A stretch of 64,000 nucleotides of DNA from Spirosoma radiotolerans (lineage in GTDB: Bacteria > Bacteroidota > Bacteroidia > Cytophagales > Spirosomataceae): NCBI RefSeq assembly GCF_000974425.1, contig NZ_CP010429.1, positions 5,844,501 to 5,908,500 on the forward strand. Direction: 5' to 3'. Positions 5,302 to 63,995 of the stretch are shown in pieces. Numbering within the stretch: the first letter of the stretch is position 1; every line of letters starts with the position of its first letter. Under the pieces are notes generated by a model that was not told the DNA's origin, made no database searches, and saw only the letters and a program-made list of their open reading frames with translations. The position numbers were made by a program, and so were the translations under genes.

Positions 5302-6747
5302 ATGACGACGGAATTTAACGACTTCGAAACACCCGTTGATGCCTACAGGCAAAAGCATGCACCCAAGCCTGACATGACGGGCGGCAAGCGGCAGTGGCTT
5401 TATCCACGTGTGGTTAAGGGTCGTTACTACCGCTGGCGGACGCTGGTTGCCTGGGTATTACTGGCGCTGTTCTTTGGCGGCCCGTTCCTAAGTCGCGATG
5501 GGCAACCGCTGTTTCTGTTCAATGTACTGGAACGAAAATTCAACTTTTTCGGCGTTACGTTCTGGCCACAGGATTTCCACCTTGTGGCCATCGGAATGCT
5601 GGCGTTCATCGTCTTCATCTCGCTCTTTACGGTCGTTTATGGCCGGGTGTGGTGTGGGTGGGCCTGTCCTCAGACGGTTTTCATGGAAATGGTATTCCGG
5701 AAAATTGAAACGGCAATCGAAGGAGATGCTAATACCCGTAAACGACTCGATGCCGCTCCCTGGACAACGGAGAAACTCTTAAAGAAGGGCACTAAATACA
5801 CCGTCTTCTTTCTGATCTCGTTCGTTATCAGCAACACGTTTCTGGCGTATATCATCGGGAAAGATGAGCTGCTGCAAATCATCACCGACGACCCCATGAA
5901 CCACCTCGGCGGGTTGATGGCCATCCTGATCTTTACGGGCGTATTCTATGCAGTTTTTGCCTGGCTGCGCGAAATTGTCTGCACCACTATCTGCCCGTAT
6001 GGGCGTCTGCAGGGCGTCCTGCTCGACCGAAAATCGGTAGTGGTTGCCTACGATGACCGGCGTGGCGAACCACGTGGAAAGATGCAGAAGCCAACAGCCA
6101 TTAACCACACATGGCAACCCCTGTCTTTTGCGCCAAAAGGAGACTGCATCGACTGTAAACTTTGCGTACAGGTTTGCCCTACCGGCATCGATATTCGCAA
6201 GGGTATCCAAATGGAGTGCATCAGTTGTACCGCCTGCATCGATGCCTGCGACGAGGTAATGGACAAAATTGGTCGTCCGCAGGGACTTATCCGGCATGAT
6301 TCGCTGGAGGGTATTCAAACCCGTAAACCGTGGCGTTTTTCGGGACGAATGATGGCCTACAGTCTCGTACTACTCCTGATTATGGGCGTGTGGGGCTATT
6401 TACTAGCCGGGCGCACCGATCTGGAAACGACCATACTTCGGGCACCGGGGCAGTTGTTTCAGCGCGAATCGGGTGGACGGATTTCGAACCTTTATCTGGT
6501 CGAAGTAGTGAACAAAACGCATCACACCCGACCCGTAACCTTTCGGGTGACGTATCCCGGCGCTCAGTTGAAGATGGTGCAACCCCTCGTGCGGGTGCCC
6601 GCCGACGAACTGGCCAAGGGTATGTTATTCATCTTGCTGCCCGAAAAGGCTATCCATCAAAACAGCACTCATCTAGAGATCGAAGTCCTTTCCGAAGGTG
6701 TCGTACTCGATAACATTAAAACAACCTTTCTGGGACCAATTCAATGA
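5302..6747 (+). CDS. ccoG: Cytochrome oxidase accessory protein CcoG (4Fe-4S, FixG-like)
   Basis: This 481-residue membrane ferredoxin is typical of cbb3 clusters. It has several membrane helices, a WCGWACPQTVF motif, and two ferredoxin-type clusters (CIDCKLCVQVCP and CISCTACIDACD). After a last helix near residue 350 comes an Ig-like C-terminal domain. CcoG acts in copper reduction or delivery during oxidase assembly in known systems. The ATG at 5302 follows a 75-bp gap after ccoP. The gene ends inside an octamer-repeat hairpin, its TGA being part of the left arm (6743-6761). Confidence 0.95.
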   Translation: MTTEFNDFETPVDAYRQKHAPKPDMTGGKRQWLYPRVVKGRYYRWRTLVAWVLLALFFGGPFLSRDGQPLFLFNVLERKFNFFGVTFWPQDFHLVAIGMLAFIVFISLFTVVYGRVWCGWACPQTVFMEMVFRKIETAIEGDANTRKRLDAAPWTTEKLLKKGTKYTVFFLISFVISNTFLAYIIGKDELLQIITDDPMNHLGGLMAILIFTGVFYAVFAWLREIVCTTICPYGRLQGVLLDRKSVVVAYDDRRGEPRGKMQKPTAINHTWQPLSFAPKGDCIDCKLCVQVCPTGIDIRKGIQMECISCTACIDACDEVMDKIGRPQGLIRHDSLEGIQTRKPWRFSGRMMAYSLVLLLIMGVWGYLLAGRTDLETTILRAPGQLFQRESGGRISNLYLVEVVNKTHHTRPVTFRVTYPGAQLKMVQPLVRVPADELAKGMLFILLPEKAIHQNSTHLEIEVLSEGVVLDNIKTTFLGPIQ

Positions 6748-6840
6748 GTGAAAGAGCGAATAGCTGCCAGCTGCCGCCTGCCACAAGTCGTTCCTTCATT
6801 CGTTCTTTCGCTCATTCACACTTTCACTCTTTCACTCATT
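6743..6840. repeat. Octamer-word inverted repeat between ccoG and ccoH
   Basis: The left arm at 6743-6761 reads GAGTGAAA GAGCGAAT and overlaps the ccoG stop codon. The right side at 6797-6840 is a longer run of the complementary octamers (consensus GAGYGAAW on the minus strand, five units in register). The right side ends 5 bp before the ccoH ATG, so a folded transcript would hide the ccoH start region. The same words form hairpins at 38271 and 49846. Confidence 0.75.
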
Positions 6841-6844
6841 GCGT

Positions 6845-7288
6845 ATGAACTGGGGCAAAGCCATACCACTTGTTTTCATTCTGTTTGCTGGTTTCATAGG
6901 CACGATGGTGTTTCGGATGAGCAGCCAGCGCATCGATCTGGTACGCGAGGACTACTACCAGGACGAGCTTACCTATCAGCAACACATCGACCGAGTCAGT
7001 AACGCACACCATACCAGACAGGGCCACACGAACTCCTCTATCGCCATGATGTATCAATCCGATCAGCAGCAGGTCGTTTTTGTCCTGCCCGATACCTTTA
7101 AAAAAGGCAAGATTACGTTTTATCGCCCTGCCGACCGCCGTGCAGATTTTCAGGTTCCGATTGTGCCGACCCATTCGGTTCGGCAGGTGGTTCCAACCAA
7201 AACGCTCGCGAAAGGGTACTGGCGGGTACAATTTACCTGGTCGGACGGGCGGCAGGACTATTATACAGAAGAACAGCTATTTATATAA
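6845..7288 (+). CDS. ccoH: cbb3 oxidase assembly protein CcoH (FixH family)
   Basis: This 147-residue protein has an N-terminal membrane anchor (residues 4-22, containing AGFIGTMVFRM) and a soluble periplasmic domain with the family signature LVREDYYQDELTYQQHIDR. CcoH is needed for stable assembly of cbb3 oxidase. The ATG at 6845 is used because the TTG at 6839 lies inside the octamer repeat. The next gene starts 2 bp after the stop codon, indicating tight coupling with the TauE/SafE-like gene. Confidence 0.9.
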   Translation: MNWGKAIPLVFILFAGFIGTMVFRMSSQRIDLVREDYYQDELTYQQHIDRVSNAHHTRQGHTNSSIAMMYQSDQQQVVFVLPDTFKKGKITFYRPADRRADFQVPIVPTHSVRQVVPTKTLAKGYWRVQFTWSDGRQDYYTEEQLFI

Positions 7289-7290
7289 CG

Positions 7291-7986
7291 ATGTCACCCT
7301 GGCTGGTTACCGCGCTCCTGACGGGGCTGATCAGCAGCCTGCACTGCGTGGGCATGTGTGGACCTTTGGTCGCGGCTTTACCCGTTGGTCGCCTGCCTTA
7401 CCCGAAGCGCCGACTAGCCATTGGCCTATACCATGCCAGCCGCATAGCAACCTATAGCGCGCTGGGCACATTGGCAGGCACAATGGGTTTCGGTTTGCAT
7501 ATGCTGGGCTGGCAACGCCCCCTTGCCATTTTTTGCGGGATTGTGCTGCTGGTCGGTTCGGTCTGGCGAAGTGGTTGGGCCACGGGATTACGCTGGGCGT
7601 GGTTTAATCGTTGGGTAACGACTTCCTTTGGGCAGCACTTGCGCCAACCGGGCTGGGCAGGTTTCGCCGGATTGGGCGTTTTGAACGGCCTGTTGCCCTG
7701 CGGATTTACGTACGTAGCGCTGGCCGGAACGCTGACTACACAAACGCCATTGGCGGGGGCTACATACATGCTGCTTTTCGGGCTAGGTACACTCCCGGCC
7801 CTGCTGAGCGTTAATGCCCTGGCAGCTTGGTTAACCACAGTGGGTCGCAGGCGATTGAACCGGGTGTTATCCGTTGCTACGGTCGTTGTTGGTCTGCTGC
7901 TTATCGGACGGGGTCTCGTAACTTACCAATTTCCCAGTCAACCTTCAGTGAGCATTCCTGTCTGTCATGGTGTACTGACAAAATAA
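7291..7986 (+). CDS. TauE/SafE-like (DsbD_2) membrane protein of the cco cluster
   Basis: This 231-residue integral membrane protein has about six helices. The first contains the motif SSLHCVGMCGPLV, and a second CxxT-type motif is LLPCGFTYVAL. Proteins of this family are often annotated as sulfite exporters, but members next to cco genes carry Cys and Met residues in membrane helices and are thought to handle copper or redox equivalents for oxidase biogenesis. The role here is inferred from position as the last gene of the cco operon, 2 bp after ccoH. The GMCG motif is clear, the transported substrate is not. Confidence 0.78.
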   Translation: MSPWLVTALLTGLISSLHCVGMCGPLVAALPVGRLPYPKRRLAIGLYHASRIATYSALGTLAGTMGFGLHMLGWQRPLAIFCGIVLLVGSVWRSGWATGLRWAWFNRWVTTSFGQHLRQPGWAGFAGLGVLNGLLPCGFTYVALAGTLTTQTPLAGATYMLLFGLGTLPALLSVNALAAWLTTVGRRRLNRVLSVATVVVGLLLIGRGLVTYQFPSQPSVSIPVCHGVLTK

Positions 7987-7988
7987 AA

Positions 7989-8016
7989 AGCGTCAGGTTT
8001 GAGAGCCTAACGCTGA
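7989..8016 (+). terminator. Possible terminator after the cco operon
   Basis: A short hairpin, AGCGTCAGG with CCTAACGCT, has one mismatch in the stem and lies just after the stop codon of the last cco gene. No T-run follows. Position suggests termination, but structure is weak. Confidence 0.4.
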
Positions 8017-8137
8017 TGATTGGCTTAGTCTGTGACTGTGGCCAACACTTACCTGATGCCTACTTTTAGCAGACTTCACCCCCTCGAAGCAAGTTAGCTG
8101 AAACGCTGGGATGACGCTTGTTTCTGAGATGAATGCC

Positions 8138-8551: not shown

Positions 8552-8556
8552 AGGGT

Positions 8557-8886: not shown

Positions 8887-8939
8887 GACAACAAATTAGT
8901 TTACCGCTGTAAAGTTGCGCTGGTTAATGCCGCTAACCC

Positions 8940-8953
8940 GTGAGCCGGATCAC
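8940..8953. promoter_or_regulatory. GTGA-N6-TCAC palindrome, CRP/FNR-type operator candidate
   Basis: GTGAGCCGGATCAC is a perfect GTGA-N6-TCAC inverted repeat in the divergent promoter region between the thioredoxin-like gene and the kinase gene. Its centre is 22 bp (about two helical turns) from the centre of the next site at 8962. Confidence 0.5.
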
Positions 8954-8961
8954 ATGATAAA

Positions 8962-8975: not shown

Positions 8976-9025
8976 TCGAAACAACGACGGTTCGTGTTAA
9001 TTTTACCCGTTGAAATTCGTATTGT

Positions 9026-12083: not shown

Positions 12084-13394
12084 ATGCAAACATCAACCTA
12101 CGTCCCCTATAAAGTTAAGGACATTGCGCTGGCCGAGTGGGGCCGCAAAGAAATTAAACTGGCTGAAGCCGAAATGCCAGGACTTATGGCCCTTCGTGCC
12201 GAATATGGCCCGTCGAAACCCCTGCAGGGCGCACGCATTGCTGGCTGTCTGCACATGACCATTCAAACCGCTGTTCTGATTGAAACACTGGTTGAGTTGG
12301 GAGCCGACGTAACGTGGTCGTCCTGTAATATTTTTTCGACACAGGACCATGCGGCTGCGGCTATCGCGGCTGCGGGTATTCCGGTATATGCCTGGAAAGG
12401 AATGAATGAAGAAGAATTCAACTGGTGTATCGAGCAAACGCTGTTTTTCGGCGAAGATCGTCAGCCATTGAACATGATTCTTGATGATGGTGGCGACTTA
12501 ACGAACATGGTTTTCGATGATTATCCTGAGCTGATTCAGGGCATCAGAGGCCTGTCGGAGGAAACAACGACCGGTGTTCACCGCCTGTATGAGCGCATGA
12601 AGAACGGCACGTTGCACTTGCCTGCCATCAACGTAAATGATTCGGTAACAAAGTCTAAATTCGATAACAAATACGGTTGCCGCGAATCGCTGGTCGACGC
12701 CATCCGTCGGGCTACCGACCTCATGCTGGCGGGCAAAGTAGCGGTTGTGGCTGGCTACGGTGACGTGGGCAAAGGATCTGCCGAATCGCTACGGGGTGCC
12801 GGTTGCCGCGTGCTGGTCACCGAAATTGACCCCATTTGTGCGCTCCAGGCAGCTATGGATGGCTTTGAAGTGCTTCCAATGGACGAAGCCGTTCACCGGG
12901 CGCAAATTTTTGTAACGGCAACTGGTAACGTAGGCATTATCAAAGAGCGTCACTTCGAAGCCATGCGCGACAAAGCCATTGTCTGCAACATTGGTCACTT
13001 CGACAACGAGATTGACATGGCGTGGCTGAACGGGAAATACGGTCAGACGAAGAGCCAGATCAAACCACAAGTGGATATGTACGAAATCAACGGCAAGGAA
13101 ATTATCATTCTGGCTGAAGGCCGTTTGGTAAACCTGGGCTGTGCTATGGGCCACCCGTCCTTTGTGATGTCGTGTTCGTTCTCGAACCAAACGCTGGCAC
13201 AACTGGAATTATGGGCTAACGCCGACAAATACGAAAACAAGGTGTATGTGCTACCCAAAATTCTCGATGAGAAAGTAGCCTCGCTTCACCTGGCTCACGT
13301 AGGCGCAAAACTGGAATCACTGGCACAAGATCAGGCCGATTACATCGGTGTATCGGTTCAGGGTCCATTCAAATCAGAAATGTATCGGTACTAG
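12084..13394 (+). CDS. ahcY: S-adenosyl-L-homocysteine hydrolase
   Basis: This 436-residue cytosolic enzyme splits S-adenosylhomocysteine into adenosine and homocysteine, completing the methyl cycle. Visible motifs are [16 protein letters not shown], the adenosine-site segment [16 protein letters not shown], the NAD-binding [17 protein letters not shown], and the C-terminal KSEMYRY that reaches into the neighbouring subunit. The ATG at 12084 gives the usual family N-terminus, while an upstream TTG at 11997 would add 29 unrelated residues. The gene is monocistronic, followed by a heptamer inverted repeat and then a strong intrinsic terminator. Confidence 0.97.
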
Positions 13395-13460
13395 ATGATG
13401 TATGATATAGGGCATATGATGTACGCCCTATATCATATACCCTACATCATACATCCTATC
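13394..13460. repeat. Heptamer-word inverted repeat (GATGTAT class) after ahcY
   Basis: The inner stem pairs 13403-13413 with 13425-13435 (TGATATAGGGC, perfect). An outer stem pairs 13397-13406 with 13446-13455 (perfect). Read on the minus strand, the right part falls into 7-base units such as ATGTATG, ATGTAGG and ATATAGG. The same class occurs at 40369 and as a single arm at 35159. Confidence 0.75.
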
Positions 13461-17892: not shown

Positions 17893-17903
17893 CCCGTAAT
17901 GAA

Positions 17904-22572: not shown

Positions 22573-23013
22573 ATGAAACATGCATTAACTGCTTTACTTT
22601 TCGCAATCACCCTATCGGCCTTTGGTCAGGCATCGGTAGCTTATTACCCGTTCAACAACCTGATTACGGTTAGCACTAACGCCGATCGTGCGTTTTGGGT
22701 GGATGCCCGGGTACAAACCAACACGGTATTTGGCTCATTGAGCACCACCATCTGCCCAATGGTTAATGTAGCCCGCAAGGCTCAGGTTAATTATTACACA
22801 GGATTAGGGGTGCGCTTTAACGCACTGAACGGAATTGATGATCGTGATGTGCTGGAAGGCTACTCGCTTCATGTCGGCGTACGCATCAAACCGCTTCTTA
22901 TGGTCCCCAATTTGCGTGTTGCTTTCGAGCTGGCTCCCTACTCCCGGAAGGATTTCAAGACAGGAAACCTCCAGTCATTTCTGGGGCTCGTTTATCAGTT
23001 TAGCAAAAAGTGA
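22573..23013 (+). CDS. Small secreted beta-barrel-like protein, unknown
   Basis: This 146-residue protein has a signal peptide (MKHALTALLFAITLSAFGQ). The rest alternates hydrophobic and polar residues and ends in FLGLVYQFSKK, compatible with the last strand of a small outer-membrane barrel. I do not recognise a family. Its stop codon is the start of a heptamer inverted repeat. Confidence 0.6.
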   Translation: MKHALTALLFAITLSAFGQASVAYYPFNNLITVSTNADRAFWVDARVQTNTVFGSLSTTICPMVNVARKAQVNYYTGLGVRFNALNGIDDRDVLEGYSLHVGVRIKPLLMVPNLRVAFELAPYSRKDFKTGNLQSFLGLVYQFSKK

Positions 23014-23100
23014 TTCGGTTTATGGTTTACGGTTTGTGGCTGGCTGGCGCGTGCTTAGTGCCATTCACAAACTACAAATCGTAAACCACAAACCGAATCC
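23012..23100. repeat. Heptamer-word inverted repeat (GTTTACG class)
   Basis: Left arm 23012-23039 starts GATTCG and continues in 7-base units GTTTATG, GTTTACG, GTTTGTG. The right arm (23066-23099), read on the minus strand, has GATTCG, GTTTGTG, GTTTACG, ATTTGTA, GTTTGTG. Differences between arms are mostly transitions. It lies between convergent genes. Confidence 0.8.
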
Positions 23101-25069: not shown

Positions 25070-25369
25070 ATGTTTGTACATACCGTTTTTTTCTGGCTAC
25101 GTCATCCCGAAAGCCAGGACGATCACCAGGCCCTCCGCGCTGGCCTGGAAGGTCTCAAGTCGATCACCGACATTACGACTGCTTACGTTGGTACCCCCGC
25201 CGAAACGCGTCGGCCTGTCATCGACCACAGCTATGATTTCGCCCTAACGCTTGTCTTTGCCGACAAAGCGGCTCACGATGCCTATCAGGTGCATCCGGGC
25301 CATTTGGCTTTTGTCGACAAATGTTCGCACCTCTGGGAGCGGGTTCAGATTTATGATGCAGTAAGTTAA
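25070..25369 (+). CDS. Dabb-family (stress-responsive alpha/beta barrel) protein
   Basis: This 99-residue protein has the dimeric alpha+beta barrel signature: an initial MFVHTVFFWLR strand, the central VYGT-like AYVGTPAET turn, the YDFALTLVFADKAAHDAYQ segment and a C-terminal HPGHLAFVDKCSHLW helix. Members range from stress proteins to small cyclases, and the role here is unknown. The ATG at 25070 gives the canonical length. Confidence 0.85.
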   Translation: MFVHTVFFWLRHPESQDDHQALRAGLEGLKSITDITTAYVGTPAETRRPVIDHSYDFALTLVFADKAAHDAYQVHPGHLAFVDKCSHLWERVQIYDAVS

Positions 25370-25372
25370 ATC

Positions 25373-25457
25373 ATAGGAGCGAGGAGTTAGACGTGAGAAG
25401 ATATTCGACGGCACAGTAGGCGTCAGCAACTCCTCACATCTGACTCCTCGCTCCTAT
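25373..25457. repeat. Heptamer-word inverted repeat (AGGAGCG class)
   Basis: The 25-base arms (25373-25397 and 25433-25457) pair with two transition differences. The left arm reads as 7-mers AGGAGCG, AGGAGTT, AGACGTG. The right arm read on the minus strand gives AGGAGCG, AGGAGTC, AGATGTG, AGGAGTT. It lies between the convergent dabb and ohr genes. Confidence 0.8.
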
Positions 25458-25467
25458 TACTTAACTC

Positions 25468-28020: not shown

Positions 28021-28103
28021 CCGATTTACGGTTTTTAGTTTACGGATTCATTATAACCATGTCTTTTGACAGACTGAATCCGTAAACCAAAAACCGTAGA
28101 CCG
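28021..28103. repeat. Heptamer-word inverted repeat (GTTTACG class)
   Basis: Left arm 28021-28050 and right arm 28075-28103 pair over 29 bases with three transition differences. The arms divide into 7-mers (GATTTAC, GGTTTTT, AGTTTAC, GGATTCA). It starts immediately after the TPR gene stop codon and ends 11 bp before the DUF4292 gene. Confidence 0.8.
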
Positions 28104-30456: not shown

Positions 30457-30527
30457 GTTTGTAGTGCAGAGTTTGTAGTTTTGATTGTTGGTTGACTAGG
30501 TATGACCACAAACTGTAAACTACAAAC
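30457..30527. repeat. Heptamer-word inverted repeat (GTTTGTA class)
   Basis: Left arm 30457-30478 reads GTTTGTA GTGCAGA GTTTGTA. The right arm 30506-30527 on the minus strand reads GTTTGTA GTTTACA GTTTGTG. Arms agree at most positions with the middle unit diverged. It separates the EnvC-like gene from panB. Confidence 0.7.
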
Positions 30528-36385: not shown

Positions 36386-38269
36386 ATGAATTATCTATCA
36401 GCCGAAAATTTAGCGAAGTCCTACGGCGACCGTACTCTTTTTAAAAACCTTACGTTCGGTATAAACCGGGGCGATAAAGTAGCCATCGTTGGTGCCAACG
36501 GTTCGGGTAAAACAACGTTGCTGTCCATTCTGGCCGGGTCAATGCCGCCCGATGCGGGTATCGTTAGCCACCGCAAAGACATCAGCATTGGCTACCTCGA
36601 TCAGCAGCCAGACCTGAATGATAGCCTGACGATCATGGAAGTGGTGCTGGCGGGCGAAAGCGCTCAGCTCGATGCCGTACGCGCTTACGAACAGGCCCTC
36701 GCCAACGAAGACCATGACGCCCTCGAAGAAGCCATGTCGAACATGGAAAAGCTCGAAGCCTGGGATTATGAAGCGCAGATTCGGCAGATTCTGGGTGAAC
36801 TGGGTATTCAGGATGTCAATCAGATTGCCGGTTCCTTATCGGGGGGGCAACGTAAACGCGTTGCGTTAGCACGGGTACTCATCCAAAATCCTGACTTGCT
36901 GATTCTGGATGAGCCAACCAACCACCTCGATCTGGAAGCAATCGAATACCTCGAAAACTACCTGAATACTAACAACGGCACCTTGCTGATGGTCTCCCAC
37001 GACCGGTATTTTCTGGATCGGGTGTGCAACCAAATCGCCGAGCTGGACAGTGGGCAGCTTTATACCTACAAAGGCAACTACGCGTACTTTCTGGAGAAAA
37101 AAGAGGAACGCGAAACGGCAGCGGCTTCGGAGCTGACCAAAGACCGTAACACTTTCCGGCGGGAACTGGAATGGATGCGTCGGCAACCCAAAGCCCGGGG
37201 CACAAAAGCGCAATACCGCATCGATGCCTTCGAGGAATTGAAAGAAAAAACCAGCGGCAAACGGAATGACGGCGAACTGGATCTGAACCTGCGCATGGCG
37301 CGGCTGGGCAGTAAAATCCTGGAAGTCGAAAACCTGAGCAAGCGCTTTGGCGATAAAGTCTTGCTCGACCATTTTAATTACACCTTCAAACGGCCCGACC
37401 GCGTGGGGTTGATTGGTAAAAATGGCATGGGCAAAACCACGCTGATGAATATGCTGACCGGCCAGTTGCGCCCCGATTCAGGGAAAATTACGACAGGCGG
37501 CACCGTTAAATTTGGCTATTATACACAAACAGAACTGGATCTACCCGAAAATCAGCGGGTAATCGATGTGGTGCAGGATGTGGCCGAAGTAATGAAACTA
37601 GCCAATGGCGATACCATCACGGCGACACAACTTCTTAGCCGGTTTTTGTTCGATCGTTCCAAGCAGTATGATTTTGTAGCCAAGCTGAGCGGGGGCGAAA
37701 AAAGACGCCTGCAACTACTGCTCGTGTTGGTGCAAAACCCAAACTTCCTGATTTTGGATGAGCCAACCAACGATCTGGATATTATGACGTTGAACGTGCT
37801 GGAAGACTTTTTACTTAATTTCCCAGGTTGTGTACTCATTGTAACCCACGATCGCTATTTCATGGACCGGCTGGTCGAGCACGTTTTCGTATTGGAAGGC
37901 GAGGGGAAAGTCCGCGATTATCCCGGTAACTATACTGATTATCGCGATTGGCGGGATGCACAACCCAAGGCTATACGCTCCGGCAAAGCAGCTCCAGCGG
38001 AGACCAAGGTTTCAGCCCCGGCGGCCGCTCCCGTGACGTCCAGCGCAAATAGTGCCAAGCGGAAACTGTCGTTTAAGGAGCTAAAGGAGTATGAAAGCAT
38101 CGAGAAAGAACTTGAATCGCTGGAAGAACATAAAAACAACCTGGTGAACCTACTGAATTCGGGAGGCCCACATGAACAACTAACGGCCTGGGCACGTGAA
38201 ATTGAGCTGATAGATCAAACCATTGCTCAAAAATCAGACCGCTGGCTGGAGTTGGCAGAATATATTTGA
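36386..38269 (+). CDS. ABC-F family ATPase
   Basis: This 627-residue cytosolic protein has two ABC domains and no membrane part. Walker A motifs are GANGSGKTT (36-44) and GKNGMGKTT. Signatures are LSGGQRKRVALARVL and LSGGEKRRLQLLLVL, with Walker B ILDEPTNHLD and ILDEPTNDLD. A linker between the domains (about 235-310) and a C-terminal coiled coil (about 555-627, KRKLSFKELKEYESIEKELESLEEH) match Uup-like ABC-F proteins that act on the ribosome. Its stop codon is 1 bp before a 30-bp palindrome. Confidence 0.94.
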   Translation: MNYLSAENLAKSYGDRTLFKNLTFGINRGDKVAIVGANGSGKTTLLSILAGSMPPDAGIVSHRKDISIGYLDQQPDLNDSLTIMEVVLAGESAQLDAVRAYEQALANEDHDALEEAMSNMEKLEAWDYEAQIRQILGELGIQDVNQIAGSLSGGQRKRVALARVLIQNPDLLILDEPTNHLDLEAIEYLENYLNTNNGTLLMVSHDRYFLDRVCNQIAELDSGQLYTYKGNYAYFLEKKEERETAAASELTKDRNTFRRELEWMRRQPKARGTKAQYRIDAFEELKEKTSGKRNDGELDLNLRMARLGSKILEVENLSKRFGDKVLLDHFNYTFKRPDRVGLIGKNGMGKTTLMNMLTGQLRPDSGKITTGGTVKFGYYTQTELDLPENQRVIDVVQDVAEVMKLANGDTITATQLLSRFLFDRSKQYDFVAKLSGGEKRRLQLLLVLVQNPNFLILDEPTNDLDIMTLNVLEDFLLNFPGCVLIVTHDRYFMDRLVEHVFVLEGEGKVRDYPGNYTDYRDWRDAQPKAIRSGKAAPAETKVSAPAAAPVTSSANSAKRKLSFKELKEYESIEKELESLEEHKNNLVNLLNSGGPHEQLTAWAREIELIDQTIAQKSDRWLELAEYI

Positions 38270-38270
38270 A

Positions 38271-38300
38271 GAGCGAAAGAGCGCATGCGCTCTTTCGCTC
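38271..38300. repeat. Perfect 30-bp palindrome of octamer words between ABC-F and DedA genes
   Basis: Left half GAGCGAAA GAGCGCA and its exact reverse complement meet with no spacer. A third complementary run (GCGCTCTTTCACTC) continues to 38318. The next ATG is at 38324. Same word class as 6743 and 49846. Confidence 0.85.
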
Positions 38301-38323
38301 ATGCGCTCTTTCACTCTTTGACT

Positions 38324-40332: not shown

Positions 40333-40368
40333 AGCGAGCGGAATGTGTGATGTATGATATAGGATGTA

Positions 40369-40412
40369 TGGTGTATCATGTATAATACACCATACATCCT
40401 ATATCATACATC
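40369..40412. repeat. Perfect heptamer-word inverted repeat (GATGTAT class)
   Basis: A 28-bp perfect stem pairs with 40385-40412 across an 8-base loop. The arm at 40349-40376 reads GATGTAT GATATAG and then GATGTAT GGTGTAT. Start given here covers the visible loop side; the full element spans 40349-40412. It lies between the aldehyde dehydrogenase start and the marR stop. Confidence 0.9.
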
Positions 40413-40422
40413 CTACATCTCT

Positions 40423-40908
40423 CTATTGTTCTTCACTTTCTAATTTATTGACCAACTCAACCATAGTGTCGATCACTTGTTCCATTCGCTCATGCCCCAC
40501 AACGAGATCAAACTTCTCGCGGGCTTCCTGCATGCATGCCTTGAGGCTTACAAATAGTTCTTTGCCCCGCTCGTTGAGAAAAATTATACTAGATCGTGAG
40601 TCGTTCGGATTCTTCTCCGTGTATATATAGCCCGCCGTTTCCAGCAAGCCAACAATTTTACTCATCATTTGCTTGGTTACACAAGCCCGTTTGGCGAGTT
40701 CATTGTTGGTAATGCCACTTTCTTCAATGTTCGCAAGAAACATCAGGTAACTCATTTTAAAATCAGTGTACCCCAACGCATGAAGGCGCGGCTCGATGAA
40801 GTTACTCGTATATCGCTTAAGACGCCATAAAATACGCCCGATGGAGCGTTCCCGGAACGTCCGATACTGGTTAAAATCAAAGGAATCTTTATCTGTTTCC
40901 ACGAACAT
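40423..40908 (-). CDS. MarR-family transcriptional regulator
   Basis: This 161-residue winged-helix repressor has helices for dimerisation and a DNA-binding segment TNNELAKRACVTKQMMSKIVGLLETAGYIYTEKNPNDSRSSIIFLNERG with the DSR wing. It probably binds the two palindromes in the divergent region and represses the efflux operon until a ligand is present. The ATG at 40908 (MFVETDKDSFDF) is preferred over a TTG at 40989 that would lie inside the operator. A TATATTTG -7-like element lies on the minus strand at 40956-40963. Confidence 0.92.
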   Translation of the reverse strand: MFVETDKDSFDFNQYRTFRERSIGRILWRLKRYTSNFIEPRLHALGYTDFKMSYLMFLANIEESGITNNELAKRACVTKQMMSKIVGLLETAGYIYTEKNPNDSRSSIIFLNERGKELFVSLKACMQEAREKFDLVVGHERMEQVIDTMVELVNKLESEEQ

Positions 40909-40963
40909 ATTGGCAATTTGAAAAACACTGAAACGATTTCTGGCAAAAAATCGTACAAATATA

Positions 40964-40978
40964 GTCAACCTATTTGAC
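40964..40978. promoter_or_regulatory. MarR operator candidate 1
   Basis: GTCAACCTATTTGAC has perfect GTCAA-N5-TTGAC symmetry and covers the -33 TTTG of the efflux promoter. It sits 21 bp (two helical turns) centre to centre from operator 2, with the marR promoter in between, so one repressor can silence both directions. Confidence 0.6.
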
Positions 40979-41004
40979 CTTGTAGTCAACCTGGTTTACT
41001 TTTG
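40973..41004 (+). promoter_or_regulatory. Promoter of the efflux operon (TTTG-N20-TAnnTTTG)
   Basis: TTTG at 40973-40976 and TACTTTTG at 40997-41004 have a 20-bp spacer. Both elements overlap the candidate MarR operators. Confidence 0.75.
40985..40999. promoter_or_regulatory. MarR operator candidate 2
   Basis: GTCAACCTGGTTTAC is a 15-bp palindrome with one mismatch and begins with the same GTCAACCT as operator 1. It ends inside the -7 element. A third half site (TTAGTCAA) follows near 41012. Confidence 0.6.
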
Positions 41005-43823: not shown

Positions 43824-43888
43824 GGTTTCCAGTTTGTGATTTGGCCTTCCCGTAAACCAAGCACCACCCACTGAAAACCTTAAACTTC
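43824..43888. repeat. Diverged heptamer-word inverted repeat (GTTTACG class)
   Basis: Left side has GTTTCCA GTTTGTG ATTTGGC. The right side on the minus strand has GTTTAAG, GTTTTCA, GTGGGTG, GTGCTTG, GTTTACG in a clean 7-base register. Pairing is imperfect. It lies between the pump and channel genes of one operon. Confidence 0.55.
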
Positions 43889-46417: not shown

Positions 46418-46498
46418 TTTTGTTCTGCCGACGCAGGAAGCATCGTAACAGGCTCGTTTAGGACACCTTACGATGCTTCCTGCGTCGGCAGAACAAAA
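46418..46498. repeat. Perfect 31-bp-stem hairpin between comB and gcvT
   Basis: Arms 46418-46448 and 46468-46498 are exactly complementary over 31 bases, with a 19-base loop. The arms carry T and A runs at the outer ends, so a terminator function for gcvT is possible. It is far longer than a typical terminator and its sequence is not word-repetitive. Confidence 0.9.
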
Positions 46499-49837: not shown

Positions 49838-49845
49838 AAATAAAA

Positions 49846-49914
49846 GAGCGAAAGAAAGAATGAGTGAAAGAGTGCCATTCGGCGTCGCTCTTTCACTCAT
49901 TCTTTCTTTCGCTC
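49846..49914. repeat. Octamer-word inverted repeat between deoC and rluB genes
   Basis: Arms 49846-49874 and 49886-49914 pair over 29 bases with one mismatch and an 11-base loop. The left arm reads GAGCGAAA GAAAGAAT and then GAGTGAAA GAGTG, same words as 6743 and 38271. Confidence 0.88.
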
Positions 49915-49922
49915 ATTAGAAA

Positions 49923-51812
49923 TTATGCGTTCAGGTACTTCAGCTTTACAACCTCCTTCGGATCGAGGAAGCGCCATTTACCACGGGGCAACTCTTTCTT
50001 GGTCAAACCGGCATAGGTTGTACGATCGAGCTTAGTTACTTCATAACCAAGGCTTTCGAATATCCGGCGCACAATACGGTTACGACCCGAATGAATTTCA
50101 ATCCCCACGACATAGGCATCAGGCGTGACAATACTTACTGCATCGGGCTTAATCGGGCCATCTTCCAGTTCAATGCCTTGCTTGATGGCATTCAGGTGCT
50201 CCTCCGTGATGGGTTTATCCAACTCAACCTGGTAGATTTTACGGATGTTGTTCGATGGGTGCGTCAGTTTATCGGCCAGTTCACCGTCATTGGTTACCAG
50301 CAAGAGACCCGTTGTGTTGCGGTCCAGGCGCCCGACCGGATACATCCGGAAGTTGCCCGCATCAGCTACTAACTCCATTACGGTTTTGCGCTCTTCGGGA
50401 TCTTCGGTCGTCGTAATGTAATCTTTCGGTTTATTCAGCAGTACATACACGAACCGCTCAGGATTCAGCACCTTCGTACCATACTTAACCGTATCGCCTT
50501 CTTTCACCTTATAACCCATCTCAGTTACCACTTTGCCGTTTACTGAAATATCACCTCGGGCAATGAGTTCATCAGCTTCCCGGCGGGAACAAACACCCGA
50601 ATTGGCGATATACCGATTCAGACGAGTCGTTCCTGGTCCGTCGTTATGATCTGACTGGCGTTTGTCATCTGACCGACTCCGTTTAAACGTGTCGGCAGCG
50701 CGGGTCTGCTCCAGATTATAATCGGGGGCTTTCGTGTAATTGCCCGTGCGCCGATCACCAGATTCTTTCCGTTGCTTACCCGTAAACCGGCTTTCGGTAT
50801 CCCAATCATTACGTGGTCCGTCATTACGTGGTCCGTCATTACGGCGATTATTCCGCTCCTGATCGGCGCTGCCAAATCGATTTCGTTCATCGGCTTCGCG
50901 GCTGAAACCACCCACCCGCTTGAAAGCTGGTTTATCAGGTCTGGCCGATCCGCCATCGCGCGAAAAACGGGACGAACCCGTACTGCGGGAATCGCTTCTA
51001 CGGTCATTCGAACGAGAAGAATCACTCCGATTTATGCGTGGGCGATCCCCATCTGGACGATCTTCCCGTTTCGGACGCTCGCTGCCGAAACGATCATTGC
51101 TACGGCTCCGATCATTTGAAAAACGCGGAGAGTCTGTATCCCGGTTACGTTGGTCCGGACGATCTTCCCGGTTGAAGCGTGGTGTACCGGCGGGCTTATC
51201 GCTGCGCGGTCCGGCACTGGCTGGCCGATAGGTGCGGTCGTCCCGGTTAAAGCGAGGCCGATCGCCATCATTAGGCCGATTGAATTTTGGGCGGTCATTA
51301 TCCCGGCTACTACCTCCCGTGCGATCACTGTCAGCAGGCCGATTAAACGTAGAACGGTCATTATCCCGACTAAACCGAGGGCGGTCACCATCGGCAGGAC
51401 GGTTAAATTTTGGGCGATCATTCTGACCACGATCAAAGCGTGGTCCGTCATTACGTGGTCCGTCATTACGTGGTCCGTCATTACGGTTATTATCGCGTGA
51501 TCCGGCTGGCCGGAAAGGTCGGCTGGATGATCCGGAGTCGCGCGAATCGGTACTACGTGGTCCACTGTTGCGGTCGTCTCGATTAAAGCGGGGCCGATCG
51601 CCATCAGCAGGGCGATTGAATTTCGGGCGGTCGTTGTTGTCCCGACTAAACCGGGGGCGATCATCACTCCGGTCCGAATTTGTGCGTGATCCCGTTGGAC
51701 CACTGGAGCGGGCGTCATCCCGACGCCCGAATGAACGACCGTCCCGCCGTTGCGGATCACCATCACGGTTTGGTCTGCCTCCCCGATCGTTCTGTTCTGA
51801 ATCTTGACTCAT
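49923..51812 (-). CDS. rluB: RluB-type pseudouridine synthase with long disordered N-terminus
   Basis: This 629-residue protein has a normal RluB/RsuA C-terminal half: an S4 RNA-binding domain from about residue 396 (TRLNRYIANSGVCSRREADELI) and the synthase domain with the catalytic Asp (about residue 497) in VGRLDRNTTGLLLV. Residues 1-395 are low-complexity, rich in Asp, Arg, Asn, Ser and Phe, with repeated units like DRPKFNRP and DGDRPRFN. RluB of E. coli is about 290 residues, so the extension more than doubles the protein. It may bind RNA or phase-separate, unproven. A TACCTTTG -7-like element is on the minus strand at 51898-51905. Confidence 0.9.
   Translation of the reverse strand: MSQDSEQNDRGGRPNRDGDPQRRDGRSFGRRDDARSSGPTGSRTNSDRSDDRPRFSRDNNDRPKFNRPADGDRPRFNRDDRNSGPRSTDSRDSGSSSRPFRPAGSRDNNRNDGPRNDGPRNDGPRFDRGQNDRPKFNRPADGDRPRFSRDNDRSTFNRPADSDRTGGSSRDNDRPKFNRPNDGDRPRFNRDDRTYRPASAGPRSDKPAGTPRFNREDRPDQRNRDTDSPRFSNDRSRSNDRFGSERPKREDRPDGDRPRINRSDSSRSNDRRSDSRSTGSSRFSRDGGSARPDKPAFKRVGGFSREADERNRFGSADQERNNRRNDGPRNDGPRNDWDTESRFTGKQRKESGDRRTGNYTKAPDYNLEQTRAADTFKRSRSDDKRQSDHNDGPGTTRLNRYIANSGVCSRREADELIARGDISVNGKVVTEMGYKVKEGDTVKYGTKVLNPERFVYVLLNKPKDYITTTEDPEERKTVMELVADAGNFRMYPVGRLDRNTTGLLLVTNDGELADKLTHPSNNIRKIYQVELDKPITEEHLNAIKQGIELEDGPIKPDAVSIVTPDAYVVGIEIHSGRNRIVRRIFESLGYEVTKLDRTTYAGLTKKELPRGKWRFLDPKEVVKLKYLNA
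50811..50848. repeat. 15-bp tandem repeat coding NDGPR (copy cluster 1)
   Basis: Tandem 15-base units with core CGTCATTACGTGGTC, encoding Asn-Asp-Gly-Pro-Arg on the minus strand, lie within the RluB extension. They are near identical at the DNA level, unlike the surrounding degenerate repeats. Confidence 0.6.
51439..51488. repeat. 15-bp tandem repeat coding NDGPR (copy cluster 2)
   Basis: Three nearly identical 15-base units of the same sequence occur here, again encoding NDGPR. Identical units suggest recent slippage, so copy number could vary between strains without a frame shift. Confidence 0.65.
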
Positions 51813-58313: not shown

Positions 58314-58369
58314 GGTTGGTGTCGTCCTGTCCCCTTCTGGATGTAAATCTACTATTTTTTTTGAAAATA

Positions 58370-58383: not shown

Positions 58384-58389
58384 CAATAA

Positions 58390-58492
58390 GTCAGAAGCGG
58401 GATTTATGAGATTACCCTGATTTATATGATTTTGCTATTTCGATAGGATTAATCATATAAATCAGGGTAATCTCATAAATCCCGCTTCTGAC
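58390..58492. repeat. Perfect 41-bp-stem hairpin abutting the TlpA-like gene
   Basis: Arms 58390-58430 and 58452-58492 are exactly complementary over 41 bases with a 21-base loop. The right arm ends on the base before the stop codon of the TlpA-like gene. It separates the two minus-strand units. Confidence 0.92.
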
Positions 58493-59749
58493 CTATTCAG
58501 CCAACAATTTATCCACCAGTCGATTGAACTCTTCTACATACTGGTCGTAATATTTGCCCGTACCTGGGCCCGAAAAGCCTGTATGAATATGCCGTACCTG
58601 GCCTTTTTTGTCAATAAAAATGGTTGTCGGGAAAGCCACAACGGCATTCAGGTCGGGTAATGCTTTGGATGCCTGCGCCTTATCATTCGTGCCCGCCAGC
58701 GCTACGGGATAATCAATCTTGAACCGTTGCTTCATGCGTTCAATCTTCGGCCCCGATTCAGCCATGTCGGGTGAGCGTTCAAACGAAAGCCCAACTAGTT
58801 CTACCCCGCGTTGTTTATTGCGCTTGTACCAGGGACTCATAAAGTTAGTTTCGTCCATGCAGTTGGGACACCAAGACCCCATAATTTGCACGATGGTTAC
58901 CTTATTTTTAAACCTTGGATCGGTATTGGAAACCGTTTTGCCACCGGGTTCGGGAAACGAGAAGTTGAGTGTTTTCGAACCAGGTTTCAAATACGTCAGT
59001 TTGGCCGGATCGGGCAGGTCGGCCTTTGGGTCAAGGAGAGCCACCCACGACTCATAGCCCGATACGCCAGCCCATTGCCCACCCGTCAGTGTTTTCGTGG
59101 CCACATCATAACCAGCTTTGAACAGATAGAGGTGAGATCCGTCGAAACAGGAGAGAAACAAGCTATCGCCAATGACATTTCCGTCAAGATAGCGGTAGTC
59201 ACCAGTCGGTGTAAGGAAAGTACCACTCAGTACATTCCCTTTCTGAGCAAACACACCAACGGCGTTGACGGTATCTACCTTCCCCGTTTTGCTGCCGAAG
59301 TTAGTCGCCCATTTGCCCGTTAAGTTAGCTTTAGCAGCCGGTTTGCCTTCTGTTTTAAACCGGTACGTCACACCATACTGGGCTTCGAAAGGCAACGTTT
59401 GCACCTGTTGTGCCGTCCGGCGACGGCGCCATTCGCCCCGCAACAGATTACCGTCTATCTTTGCCACTAATTCTGACTCAAAGAGGGACATAGGTATCCG
59501 AATTGAGTCGCCCTGTACAGTGGCGGGGTCCATGGGCAAGCGTTCGTTCCCATTGATGGCAAAGACGGCATAGGTCCGGGCGTCACCCGCAGTTGGCTGA
59601 ATGTCCAGTCCGAACGGTAGTTCACCACCTTTGGTTTTCAGAACAGCCCGGTAGGTTCCGGGTTTTACCGTTGCCGGGGCCGATTGACCGGAGCAGGCAG
59701 TGGGTAGCCACAGCAACGTAAGGGCTGCCAGAGGAAGAAGATGTTTCAT
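58493..59749 (-). CDS. TlpA/ResA-type thioredoxin lipoprotein
   Basis: This 418-residue protein has a lipoprotein signal (MKHLLPLAALTLLWLPTAC, Cys at about residue 19), an N-terminal beta-rich domain (about 25-260) and a C-terminal thioredoxin domain with the active site GSWCPNCMDE and the cis-Pro in AFPTTIFIDKKGQ. It probably reduces or exchanges disulfides in the periplasm, for example during cytochrome c maturation. The ATG at 59749 is used as it starts the signal peptide. Confidence 0.88.
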   Translation of the reverse strand: MKHLLPLAALTLLWLPTACSGQSAPATVKPGTYRAVLKTKGGELPFGLDIQPTAGDARTYAVFAINGNERLPMDPATVQGDSIRIPMSLFESELVAKIDGNLLRGEWRRRRTAQQVQTLPFEAQYGVTYRFKTEGKPAAKANLTGKWATNFGSKTGKVDTVNAVGVFAQKGNVLSGTFLTPTGDYRYLDGNVIGDSLFLSCFDGSHLYLFKAGYDVATKTLTGGQWAGVSGYESWVALLDPKADLPDPAKLTYLKPGSKTLNFSFPEPGGKTVSNTDPRFKNKVTIVQIMGSWCPNCMDETNFMSPWYKRNKQRGVELVGLSFERSPDMAESGPKIERMKQRFKIDYPVALAGTNDKAQASKALPDLNAVVAFPTTIFIDKKGQVRHIHTGFSGPGTGKYYDQYVEEFNRLVDKLLAE

Positions 59750-60783: not shown

Positions 60784-60790
60784 CTAATAA

Positions 60791-60837
60791 AAACAGGAAG
60801 GGGCGCAGTTTATACAAACTGCGCCCCTTCCTGTTTT
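60791..60837. terminator. Bidirectional terminator after rsmH
   Basis: A 21-bp perfect stem (60791-60811 with 60816-60836) has a 4-base loop and A/T-rich ends, between convergent rsmH and FKBP genes. Confidence 0.9.
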
Positions 60838-60841
60838 TACT

Positions 60842-61729: not shown

Positions 61730-61825
61730 GAAAATAAACTAAAGTCAAGTTACACTACCACTAACAGTGCATAGTTAGTAAGTTATTGATTAATAACTGG
61801 AAAGCAAGCGAGTTGGCGCTCATTT

Positions 61826-62749
61826 TTACTTGGCCGAAACGACCTCCAGATCGAAGCTAAGGGGCGAGTAAGGAGGAATAACATAAGTATTATTCTGGGC
61901 AGCGCCGGTAGCCCCATACCCCAGCGACGATGGAAAGATAACCGTTGCCTTCTCGCCAACTTTTAGCTTGGCTAGCCCTTCCTCAAAACCGGGTACAAAC
62001 TTAGTTATCCCAACCGTTTTGGTATCGGTTCCGGTGCCGCCCGTAAAGCCGGTGGTGGCTCGTAGGAGTTTGCCAGCATAATTTAGCGTTATGGTTTGAT
62101 TGGCTGAAGGTTGAAGCCCAGAAGGATTACTTTTGGTCTTGATAACTAACGCGCCTGATTGTGTTGTATCTGTAACAACCAGCTTGTTAGCAGCAATATA
62201 ATCGTTTATTTGTTGAGCCTCTGTCCGCGTGCGCTTCAATGTCACGTCAAACCGAACGGGTGAGTTGGCGGGAATATTTCCATCTACGACACTACCAAAC
62301 GCTAAAATCGATGGCATAATCAGAATAGCAGACTCACCCTCGTGCATCTTCAGAATACCTTCCTCCAGTCCAGGCTTCAGTGACTTAGCAAAAAACGGAA
62401 AGTAGGTAGAGGTTGTGGCATAGGCCGAATCTACCACCTTACTCGTTACCGTTGTCGCATTACTTACGTTGCTGGGCCCGTATAACACAGACAGTTTATA
62501 GGTAAACTCAATTTCCTGGCCGTAAGTAGGTACTATCGTTGTTGAGCCAGGGCTCGTCGACTGAAAAAAGAGCCCCGATGCGGACGTGGTTCCCGACAAA
62601 CCCTGACTGATCGTATAACTACTAATATCGGCCATGTTATTCGTGTACGTAGTAGCGGCATCGCTACTAGCGTCAATACTTTGTTGCTGGCAGGAAGCCA
62701 GTCCGCCGATCAGGAGGGCGCCTAAAATGGCAAATGGAATGATACGCAT
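61826..62749 (-). CDS. FKBP-type peptidyl-prolyl isomerase lipoprotein (2 of 2)
   Basis: This 307-residue lipoprotein (lipobox LASC) is a paralog of the downstream gene, with the same two-FKBP layout: QTITLNYAGKLL, KFVPGFEEGLAKLKVGEKATVIFPSSLGYG and VIPPYSPLSFDLEVVSAK. The two genes lie in tandem, 96 bp apart, and share block positions along their whole length, so they arose by duplication. Diverged linkers suggest different clients. Confidence 0.9.
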   Translation of the reverse strand: MRIIPFAILGALLIGGLASCQQQSIDASSDAATTYTNNMADISSYTISQGLSGTTSASGLFFQSTSPGSTTIVPTYGQEIEFTYKLSVLYGPSNVSNATTVTSKVVDSAYATTSTYFPFFAKSLKPGLEEGILKMHEGESAILIMPSILAFGSVVDGNIPANSPVRFDVTLKRTRTEAQQINDYIAANKLVVTDTTQSGALVIKTKSNPSGLQPSANQTITLNYAGKLLRATTGFTGGTGTDTKTVGITKFVPGFEEGLAKLKVGEKATVIFPSSLGYGATGAAQNNTYVIPPYSPLSFDLEVVSAK

Positions 62750-62837
62750 GAAAAAAGAGTAACTAAGAATCAGTAAATACTACGCTCAATGACCCCAAAA
62801 CGTGGCAAGACGTTGTAAACCCGTTAATTTTTGTTAA

Positions 62838-63794
62838 TCAGGGTAGCAATACCTGGTCTATCACATGAATGACTCCGTTGGTCGTAGGCTGATCGCCTTG
62901 TTTGATGGTAGCCGCCGTTGAATTTTTGTTACCCTTGATCGTAAGCTGATTGGCAGTAGCCGTAACCGCTAGTCGGTTGCCATTAAGCAACGTAGTCAGG
63001 TTACCTGTCTGAAGCTGATTGGCAAACAAAGCGCCCGATACCACATGATAGAGTAACATATTGGTCAGCGTTTGTACATTGGCCGAACTAACGGCAGCCA
63101 GATCTTTATAGCCAGCCGATTTAAATGCGGCATCATTCGGCGCAAACACCGTGACAATATTGGACGTCGACTCATTATTCAAAGTTGTCATTAGGGTCGG
63201 ATTACTAGTCCCAACCCGTTGAATGGCCGCCGATAGAAATGTCAGGTTCGGATTGTTCTGAATAGTTGTCAACAGATTACCCGATGACGGAATCAGTACC
63301 CGGTCTACGCTGTGCATATATCCATTCGCCACCGCAATGTCAGCCTGAATGACTTGGGCATTGTTTATGAAAATCTTGCCATCCGACGTTTTATTAAGAA
63401 AGGTGATGCTTTTGCCAACCGTTGCTACCGGATTCTGGCCCGATGGTATCGTGGAGGCTGAAACAGGTCCGCCCAACACATGGTATAACAAAATAGCCCG
63501 CATCTGCTCCTTTGAGTAAGCCGTAATAGCGCCCGGCGTTGCCAGTCCCGACGCTTGGAAAGCCGCATCATTCGGCGCGAACAGGGTTAAATTACTGCCC
63601 TTAAGTGCATCGCCAACTTCAGCATAAATCATAGCAGCCCGTAGCAGGCTAAATTGATCATCTTCAACAATACGATCCGTGATGGTTTTAGGAGTAGCTA
63701 TGGTATCATCACCATTCTTGCAACTAAACAAGGCTATAAACAGCAAAACGATCACAGGGATCCGGCGGGTGCCTATCAAAAAAACGGAGTTCAT
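62838..63794 (-). CDS. Fasciclin (FAS1) domain lipoprotein
   Basis: This 318-residue protein has a lipoprotein signal (MNSVFLIGTRRIPVIVLLFIALFSC) and two FAS1 domains, each with the TLFAPNDAAF/VFAPNDAAF H1 box and a YHV H2 box (LLYHVLGG, LLYHVVSG). FAS1 domains bind matrix or cell surfaces. It is in the same orientation as the FKBP genes, 88 bp upstream, and may be a client or partner. ATG 63794 begins the signal peptide. TATCTTTG lies at 63864-63871 on the minus strand. Confidence 0.92.
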   Translation of the reverse strand: MNSVFLIGTRRIPVIVLLFIALFSCKNGDDTIATPKTITDRIVEDDQFSLLRAAMIYAEVGDALKGSNLTLFAPNDAAFQASGLATPGAITAYSKEQMRAILLYHVLGGPVSASTIPSGQNPVATVGKSITFLNKTSDGKIFINNAQVIQADIAVANGYMHSVDRVLIPSSGNLLTTIQNNPNLTFLSAAIQRVGTSNPTLMTTLNNESTSNIVTVFAPNDAAFKSAGYKDLAAVSSANVQTLTNMLLYHVVSGALFANQLQTGNLTTLLNGNRLAVTATANQLTIKGNKNSTAATIKQGDQPTTNGVIHVIDQVLLP

Positions 63795-63884
63795 CACAAC
63801 AGACGGGGTTAACGAGGGTCTGTACCTAAAAACGCCAGCCCTCAGCTTATTAGTCTTCAACCACAAAGATACAGCGGTCGAAGG

Positions 63885-63995
63885 TAAGTTGATAAATGGT
63901 CAGGTAGTAAGTCATCCATTGGTAACGAATAGGGACTGGCTGCGTCAGTTGCTGACCACTTACCGACTTATGACTTACTACTTATCGACTTGCCA
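63885..63995. repeat. Word-based inverted repeat (AAGTCAT class) at window end
   Basis: The right side on the minus strand reads AAGTCGAT AAGTAGT, then AAGTCAT AAGTCGGT AAGTGGT (7-8 base units). The left side has AAGTTGAT and GGTAGT AAGTCAT in the same order with an insertion. It may extend past the window. Confidence 0.6.

Follow-up and report, generated by a model that had tools for sequence, protein, structure and literature searches.

Hairpins with arms of 7- or 8-base words in the gene gaps of Spirosoma, and their possible upkeep by template switching

How can a hairpin between two genes keep its place and shape while its letters change? The question arises at a stretch of 64,000 nucleotides (nt) of Spirosoma radiotolerans (contig NZ_CP010429.1, positions 5,844,501 to 5,908,500 of the forward strand), called the window below. 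A search with one protein of the window has Spirosoma in 18 of the first 20 loci listed, the best segment being 89% identical. The original prediction for this window listed eleven intergenic inverted repeats with arms made of degenerate tandem 7-mers or 8-mers. We show that such word hairpins are a class distinct from other, plain hairpins, and that their arms change in a mirrored manner between sister species. Slippage and template switching on the DNA would probably account for their upkeep, and a role in the transcript is proposed tentatively.

A class of word hairpins

Self-pairing at each of the eleven coordinates was measured locally with gaps allowed and scored against 200 dinucleotide shuffles per site, and the arms were then tested for periodicity. 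At nine coordinates (6743, 13394, 23012, 25373, 28021, 30457, 38271, 40349 and 49846) the pairing exceeds the best of the 200 shuffles. Arm periodicity peaks at lag 8 in 6743, 38271 and 49846, and at lag 7 in 13394, 23012, 25373, 28021, 30457 and 40349. The z scores of the single sites are modest (2.2 to 3.9). Thus the predicted division into 7- and 8-base units is recovered at nine sites; it fails at 43824, where pairing is at the chance level, and the site at 63885 is marginal, with words that are not assignable. Shuffled gaps of the same genome give such pairing in 0 to 1%, so shuffled DNA does not reproduce the elements. The words also occur elsewhere in the genome, with 148 + 142 matches to the heptad pattern against 5 + 7 for a reversed control, and 74 + 67 matches to the octad pattern against none. 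A blind scan for ungapped inverted repeats found 15 in the window and 55 in another 400 kb of the genome, versus 0 in one shuffled copy of the window and 0 in the shuffled 400 kb. Rfam families gave no match in the window at the gathering cut-off.

The class was then defined on a wider sample, comprising 1.264 Mb of the 7.03-Mb single-contig chromosome and 200 kb each of the genomes G030 and G005; the scans as a whole covered 100 to 300 kb in each of six genomes besides S. radiotolerans. Among 256 hairpins scoring at least 13 in these three genomes, the best lag at z of at least 2.5 is 7 in 33, 8 in 20 and any other in 10; shuffled arms gave 25, spread over ten lags. With a word hairpin taken as one with best arm lag 7 or 8 at z of at least 2.3, the three genomes hold 60, of which roughly 5 (z 2.5) to 17 (z 2.0) could, judging by shuffled arms, be due to chance. 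Forty-two of them lie in the sampled part of the S. radiotolerans chromosome, which extrapolates to about 230 per genome. Tandem arrays point the same way. At 12 of 16 matches, degenerate arrays in the noncoding DNA of this genome number 44 for lag 7, 26 for lag 8 and 4 to 13 for lags 5, 6, 9, 10 and 11. An inverted partner accompanies 21 of the 44 and 17 of the 26, compared with 2 and 0 shuffled arrays, so that about half of the lag-7 arrays stand without one. Near-perfect arrays (14 of 16 matches) number only five at each of the two lags. Averaged over all intergenic inverted repeats, arm periodicity is weak or absent (lag 7 z of 1.1, 4.3 and 3.1 in three stretches of this genome), because most of these repeats have no words.

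The lexicon is small. GAGYGAAW accounts for 15 of the 42 word hairpins, GTTTAYG for 14, GATGTAT for 8 and other words for 5, and the motif GCTGACGC or a near form of it is found in 10 of the 42. The octamer GCTGACGC/GCGTCAGC was also counted by itself: it occurs 32 times in 149 kb of noncoding and 50 times in 1115 kb of coding DNA of this genome, forms 15 exact facing pairs genome-wide versus 0 for a control, and is present in loops of other species. The fixed register of 7 or 8 and the three classes that hold 37 of the 42 are what one would expect if an RNA- or DNA-binding protein that reads repeats bound the arrays and the hairpin were secondary, and the available text of PMC4679880 discusses cold-shock proteins as heptamer readers for TAACTGA repeats. 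We nevertheless consider this explanation extremely improbable, as the words drift, the class switches between species at some gaps, and many arrays have the inverted partner counted above, though the rest have none.

The words extend beyond S. radiotolerans. With one mismatch allowed, 31 of 35 other genomes of the genus have the heptad pattern, though several of them no more often than background, and 7 of 23 genomes outside the genus have it too. The octad pattern was found in 20 of 148 genomes from the order, none of which the control matches; they comprise 8 of 11 in this family and 12 of 137 others. The octad-positive other families include f12, where close inverted pairs are among the places listed. 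Ten loci just outside Spirosoma (203 kb; Rudanella, Fibrella, Fibrivirga, Fibrisoma, one labelled Cytophagales and one labelled Flavobacterium) have best lag 7 in 8 of 36 hairpins, with 1 under the null. In 22 further Bacteroidota loci, lag 7 is best in 4 of 22 hairpins and lag 8 in 1, with 0 under the null. Two other kinds of repeat were noted. In the sister genome G030 (L134-L143), inverted repeats are built from a different kind of 8- and 9-base word (GACAGGATTACAGGATT). G107, from another family of the order, has long direct octad arrays (GAGTGAAT) at C2:233759-233837 and C13:47738-47824, on one strand only among the places listed.

Turnover of arms and loops

Six gaps of the window were compared over up to 29 loci. 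The spacer often has a hairpin, the words vary by species and the word class sometimes switches. The 49846 and 38271 gaps were each read in 30 Spirosoma genomes, S. radiotolerans included. A hairpin scoring at least 10 is present in 30 of 30 at the former and in 27 of 30 at the latter, and the best arm period is 8 in 22 genomes at each gap. At the 38271 gap, three loci (L170, L179 and L182) have a quite different, non-word hairpin, and the genomes G007 and G010 have a short spacer with no hairpin. At the same threshold of 10, the species with sequence have a hairpin in 7 of 24 cases at the 28021 gap and in 16 of 25 at the 30457 gap. A filled and empty pair was also noted in the L241/L242 region: G004 has a heptad hairpin that G027 lacks, and the G027 gap retains only a short GGTTTACG remnant; the place is approximate.

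Sister genomes were compared in 18 pairings, with orthologous gaps below 70% identity left out of the base-pair counts. The sister gap also has a hairpin for 31 of 33 word hairpins. Identity is under 70% for 13 of these 33, and a further 5 word hairpins have no locatable orthologue. In 540 base pairs of word hairpins there are 47 single changes, 10 double changes that keep the pair and 6 other double changes, whereas independent change predicts 2.9 doubles, about 1.0 of them kept. Individual cases can be read directly. Between G004 and G027, the sole difference at the 49846 gap is one mirrored T/C change; elsewhere a loopless perfect palindrome in G004 corresponds to an imperfect one with a 22-nt loop in G027, and the two genomes also differ by the insertion or deletion of one 8-nt unit. 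S. spitsbergense and S. luteum differ by an insertion or deletion of 14 nt in one arm.

The loops are informative as well. In 45 sister comparisons 11 loops have the same orientation, 3 are inverted and 31 are unalignable. The inversion between G004 and G027 is exact over 14 nt (L241:8815-8842 and L251:4325-4352), and an additional one, between G007 and G010, is exact over 13 nt (L211, L212). The inversion between G001 and G018 is good and lies in a plain hairpin, and that between L019 and L021 is weak.

According to the available text of PMC8604942, template switching homogenises arms and inverts spacers, and that of PMC8794818 states that RNA hairpins can be created and maintained by template switching. 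Mirrored arm changes and inverted loops are thus the published signatures of the process. The proposal that the elements are self-correcting, perhaps by template switching, is therefore well supported: mirrored changes exceed expectation, an arm has been perfected in one lineage, and loops are inverted between sister species. We suggest that each element is a palindromic spacer whose arms would gain and lose whole 7- or 8-base units by slippage. Polymerase template switching would rewrite one arm from the other, so that the hairpin persists, the letters turn over and the loop can flip. From the sequences compared, we judge it probable that word hairpins are maintained in this way by slippage and template switching at the DNA level.

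Stepwise compensation in RNA by way of G-U pairs was tried as another path and rejected, as standing G-U and A-C mismatches do not differ (29:35 and 44:32 in two counts; binomial p 0.53 and 0.21). Of 14 single changes of the transition type in word hairpins, 10 led to G-U and 4 to A-C, which is too few to tell. The similar frequency of the two mismatches implies that the unit of selection would be the whole hairpin and not each pair. The predicted excess of transitions among arm mismatches holds at the nine window sites (16 of 22) and vanishes in the 49 co-directional word hairpins of the three genomes (64 of 120).

If single pairs are not visibly selected in RNA, the hairpins might be functionless. 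Slippage and template switching would then make and refresh palindromes that survive only where they are harmless, just past stop codons. The DNA-level signatures require no function, the G-U and A-C counts are about equal, and the hairpin is missing in some species. On the other side, its presence in 30 of 30 and 27 of 30 genomes at two gaps suggests selection for having one, and the non-word hairpins of L170, L179 and L182 at the 38271 gap also speak against a neutral by-product. We consider that explanation unlikely.

The original prediction also spoke of a replicating element, and dispersed mobile palindromes, copied around the genome in the manner of repetitive extragenic palindromic (REP) elements or miniature inverted-repeat transposable elements, would explain why many loci and several genera have a lexicon in common, and why 10 of the 42 word hairpins carry the loop motif GCTGACGC. 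Extended sequence is shared within one nested pair, whose elements lie 6 kb apart near 2,614,240 and 2,620,474 of the chromosome, so sequence exchange between nearby loci does occur. There are also two Y1-transposase (Y1_Tnp) genes, considered as possible dedicated transposases of the REP kind (RAYT), one of them with a word hairpin within about 170 nt downstream. But only 3 of 4950 loop pairs share a loop at a score of at least 12 (17 at a score of at least 10). Target-site duplications, sought as abutting repeats of at least 4 nt, flank 0 of the 42 word hairpins of this genome, and the REP tags at their ends are not in excess (GTAG in 2 of 42 versus 2.8 shuffled, CGTC in 0 of 42 versus 0.5). 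The Y1 gene, moreover, has its own, different palindromes on both sides. Apart from the local copying seen in the nested pair, replication of the elements is thus not borne out; the mobile-element explanation is largely rejected and we regard it as very improbable. The Y1-type transposase gene is at L253:1369-2079 (G000:C1 near 3300158), between palindromes ACCCACACATTTATGTGTGGGT and CCCACAAATTTATTTGTGGG, and a GTTTACG word hairpin directly follows the downstream one.

Growth was also noted among plain hairpins when G018 (L219-L223) was compared with G001 (L214-L218). One G018 hairpin has a 10-nt insert that mirrors the flank across from it. In another, both arms have acquired blocks that are complementary to each other, and an extra hairpin is present in a third gap.

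Position in operons and a possible role in the transcript

Genes were called as the longest open reading frames, guesses in which stop codons are firmer than start codons. The claim that the elements are intergenic, within operons or between convergent genes, stands, except that at 6742, 23012 and 25364 the element and the upstream stop codon overlap by a few bases. In the three genomes, 49 of the 60 word hairpins are in co-directional gaps, 9 in convergent and 2 in divergent ones, and the plain hairpins number 111, 74 and 11. In co-directional gaps, 47 of 49 word hairpins begin between -15 and +18 nt relative to the upstream stop (median +2), compared with a median of 21 for plain hairpins. 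Word hairpins span a median of 78% of the gap, compared with 41% for plain ones. The 5′ arm on the sense strand has a mean GC skew of +0.51, positive in 92% of the 49 (plain, 0.08 and 57% of 111). As a palindrome reads identically on both strands, the positive skew means that the G-rich word is directed at the loop. At the 49846 gap, 27 of 28 genomes have the 3′ foot 2-13 nt upstream of the conserved start, and at the 38271 gap it lies 1-12 nt upstream in 17 of 19. The unpaired remainder of the spacer has a median of 9 nt at the 49846 gap, 10 at 38271, 15 at 28021 and 14 at 30457.

At the 28021 gap the spacer is all but absent in some relatives, which suggests that the hairpin gives a junction with a spacer the geometry of a tight junction again. 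When transcribed between co-directional genes, the hairpin would loop out the spacer, with the stop and the next start brought to about 10 unpaired nt of each other. The cistrons would thereby be kept adjacent for translation, and little ribosome-free single-stranded RNA would be exposed to Rho or nucleases. Selection would act on the possession of a closed hairpin, not on its letters. This looping-out role, proposed from position and anatomy, is possible but somewhat doubtful; shielding from Rho or nucleases would use the same anatomy.

Three other proposals for the RNA or the gap were weighed. TAnnTTTG is a promoter motif of Bacteroidota. It occurs in 1 of 29 gaps of 70-200 nt with a word hairpin in this genome, in 10 of 64 with a plain hairpin and in 24 of 158 without a hairpin, and the idea of a promoter in every loop was dropped on these counts. 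The 30457 gap often has a promoter-like motif in the species compared, and motif and hairpin there tend to exclude each other (p 0.073 for TAnnTTTR, 0.69 for TAnnTTTG). The second idea, that periods of 7 and 8 place stop codons in all frames, was rejected by eye, since words such as GAGCGAA and GGTTTAC contain no stop codon when read on the sense strand.

The third is that of the original prediction, a terminator or RNA stabiliser. Transcription terminators or stabilisers of the 3′ end of the upstream gene would be expected next to a stop codon, where word hairpins indeed are, and hairpins of all kinds (score at least 12) are present in 53-66% of the convergent and 28-36% of the co-directional gaps of at least 45 nt in this genome, compared with 5-15% of the divergent ones. 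Word hairpins, however, are mostly co-directional, and their 3′ foot is often 1-13 nt from the next start, which leaves no room downstream for a new promoter. TTTT within 3 nt of the 3′ arm is present in 6% of the 49 word hairpins, and in 9% of the 111 and 7% of the 74 plain ones; this test has little power because plain hairpins are also low and the arms may absorb a run of T. A terminator is thus not favoured for the word class, and the terminator or stabiliser explanation as a whole seems quite unlikely to us.

The explanation we prefer combines DNA-level turnover by template switching with looping-out in the RNA, and we give the combination about an even chance. Several observations weigh against it. 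Plain hairpins change concertedly too: in 605 pairs they show 72 single changes, 28 double changes that keep the pair and 4 others, where 7.6 doubles and 2.5 kept ones are expected (15 of the 40 in this set fall below 70% identity, and 24 have no orthologue). Template switching is thus not particular to the word class. As many as 31 of the 45 sister loops are unalignable in either orientation, and inverted loops make up 3 of 869 within-locus pairs, two of them by way of the shared GCTGACGC motif, versus 3 of 3787 between loci; most of the 869 are too diverged for alignment. Among species whose spacer reaches 60 nt or more, 8 of 12 at the 28021 gap and 13 of 26 at the 30457 gap lack a hairpin scoring 12. 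In the 49 co-directional word gaps taken together, TAnnTTTG is found 4 times versus 2.1 shuffled, so promoters are not absent. Finally, mirrored changes and the retention of hairpins could also stem from selection for pairing.

The combined explanation can be extended to the origin of the class, in a form that we put forward as speculative and rather unlikely. Palindromic spacers would enter tight operon junctions as self-masking insertions, since the spacer folds up once transcribed and the stop and start codons again lie no more than about 10 nt apart. Maintaining themselves by template switching, they would persist genus-wide with place and shape kept and sequence free, in a drifting lexicon of 7- and 8-base words.

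The sites in the window and related systems

Of the nine word hairpins in the window, three are octads. The GAGYGAAW hairpin at 6743..6840 (+ strand; pairing score 15.5 versus a shuffle maximum of 13.0, lag 8) has a loop of 62 nt and overlaps the stop codon of a gene whose end is at 6747. Another, at 38269..38318 (+; 17.0 versus 9.5, lag 8), is flanked by an ABC-ATPase gene and a VTT-domain gene, and the third, at 49843..49917 (-; 27.5 versus 11.0, lag 8), is downstream of the minus-strand gene 49923-51812. The heptad hairpins of the GATGTAT type are at 13397..13455 (+; 19.5 versus 16.0, lag 7), beginning 2 nt past the stop of the gene ending at 13394, and at 40343..40418 (-; 29.5 versus 14.0, lag 7), 4 nt past the stop of the minus-strand gene 40423-40989. 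Two heptad hairpins have no assigned strand. One of the GGTTTAC type occupies a convergent gap at 23012..23099 (21.0 versus 10.0, lag 7), with an S41 peptidase gene as its minus-strand neighbour. The other, of the AGGAGCG type at 25364..25466 (24.5 versus 10.0, lag 7), lies between convergent Dabb-domain and OsmC-like genes. The GTTTACG-type hairpin at 28027..28098 (+; 21.5 versus 11.5, lag 7) is flanked by a TPR-protein gene and a DUF4292 gene, and the heptad hairpin with the word GTTTGTAGT at 30457..30527 (+; 13.0, close to the shuffle maximum of 12.0; lag 7) by an M23 peptidase gene and panB.

The two remaining coordinates gave a marginal inverted repeat of 12 perfect pairs at 63904..63981 (no strand; 12.0 versus 11.5), with arms too short for the test of period 7 or 8, and a site left uncounted at 43824..43879 (+; 7.5, where the shuffles have a 95th percentile of 8.5 and a maximum of 9.5). 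Long inverted repeats outside the word class are at 17899, 45653, 46418, 54075, 55194, 58385 and 60788. The one at 46418-46498 has perfect 31-nt arms (TTTTGTTCTGCCGACGCAGGAAGCATCGTAA) without 7- or 8-base words, and similar-looking arms (GTCATCCTGACGCAGGAAGCATC) are present in G005. That at 58385-58497 has 47-nt arms, 98% complementary, over the stop of a minus-strand gene, with a best lag of 9 (z 2.6).

No description of such elements in Cytophagales was found in the open-licence literature of PubMed Central (PMC), subscription papers being outside that scope. A class that is kept in place and shape, and not in sequence, is easily overlooked by sequence-based searches. For operons, it raises the question of whether a spacer-looping hairpin keeps two cistrons coupled.

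REP elements near stop codons lower translation in Escherichia coli. In the available text of PMC3733652 they are, like the Spirosoma elements, palindromes in co-directional and convergent gaps near the 3′ end of the upstream gene. They carry GTAG or CGTC tags and occur as similar copies, whereas the Spirosoma hairpins have no tag excess, unique loops and arms of degenerate tandem words. Heptanucleotide long simple sequence repeats and TAACTGA repeats, as far as the available text of PMC4679880 describes them, are also intergenic tandem units of 7 bases for which slippage is proposed; the same text also reports Mrazek 2007. These repeats are direct, have one unit and in the main genome are mostly just 5′ of starts, while those of Spirosoma are degenerate, inverted, also of 8 bases and located past stops. 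Intercistronic structures that shape operon messenger RNA (PMC5927463, PMC9239205; compared by brief description) have an operon-internal site in common with the word hairpins and involve Rho or decay at gene junctions, and these descriptions mention no word construction or sequence turnover.

The nearest likeness is to hairpins made by template switching, or quasipalindrome correction, with which the word hairpins share arm homogenisation, compensatory changes and loop (spacer) inversion in the available texts of PMC8794818 and PMC8604942. How long, near-perfect stems persist although both of their sides change has been a puzzle in RNA evolution for a long time. PMC8794818, in the part available, holds that no support for template switching could be stronger than a compensatory change combined with loop inversion, and found such cases to be extremely rare. 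The two texts describe the process for ribosomal RNA, microRNA and yeast coding DNA, whereas in Spirosoma it would concern a genus-wide class in gene gaps, with arms of 7- or 8-base words. These gaps provide many natural replicates, with loop inversions of 13-14 nt between sister species.

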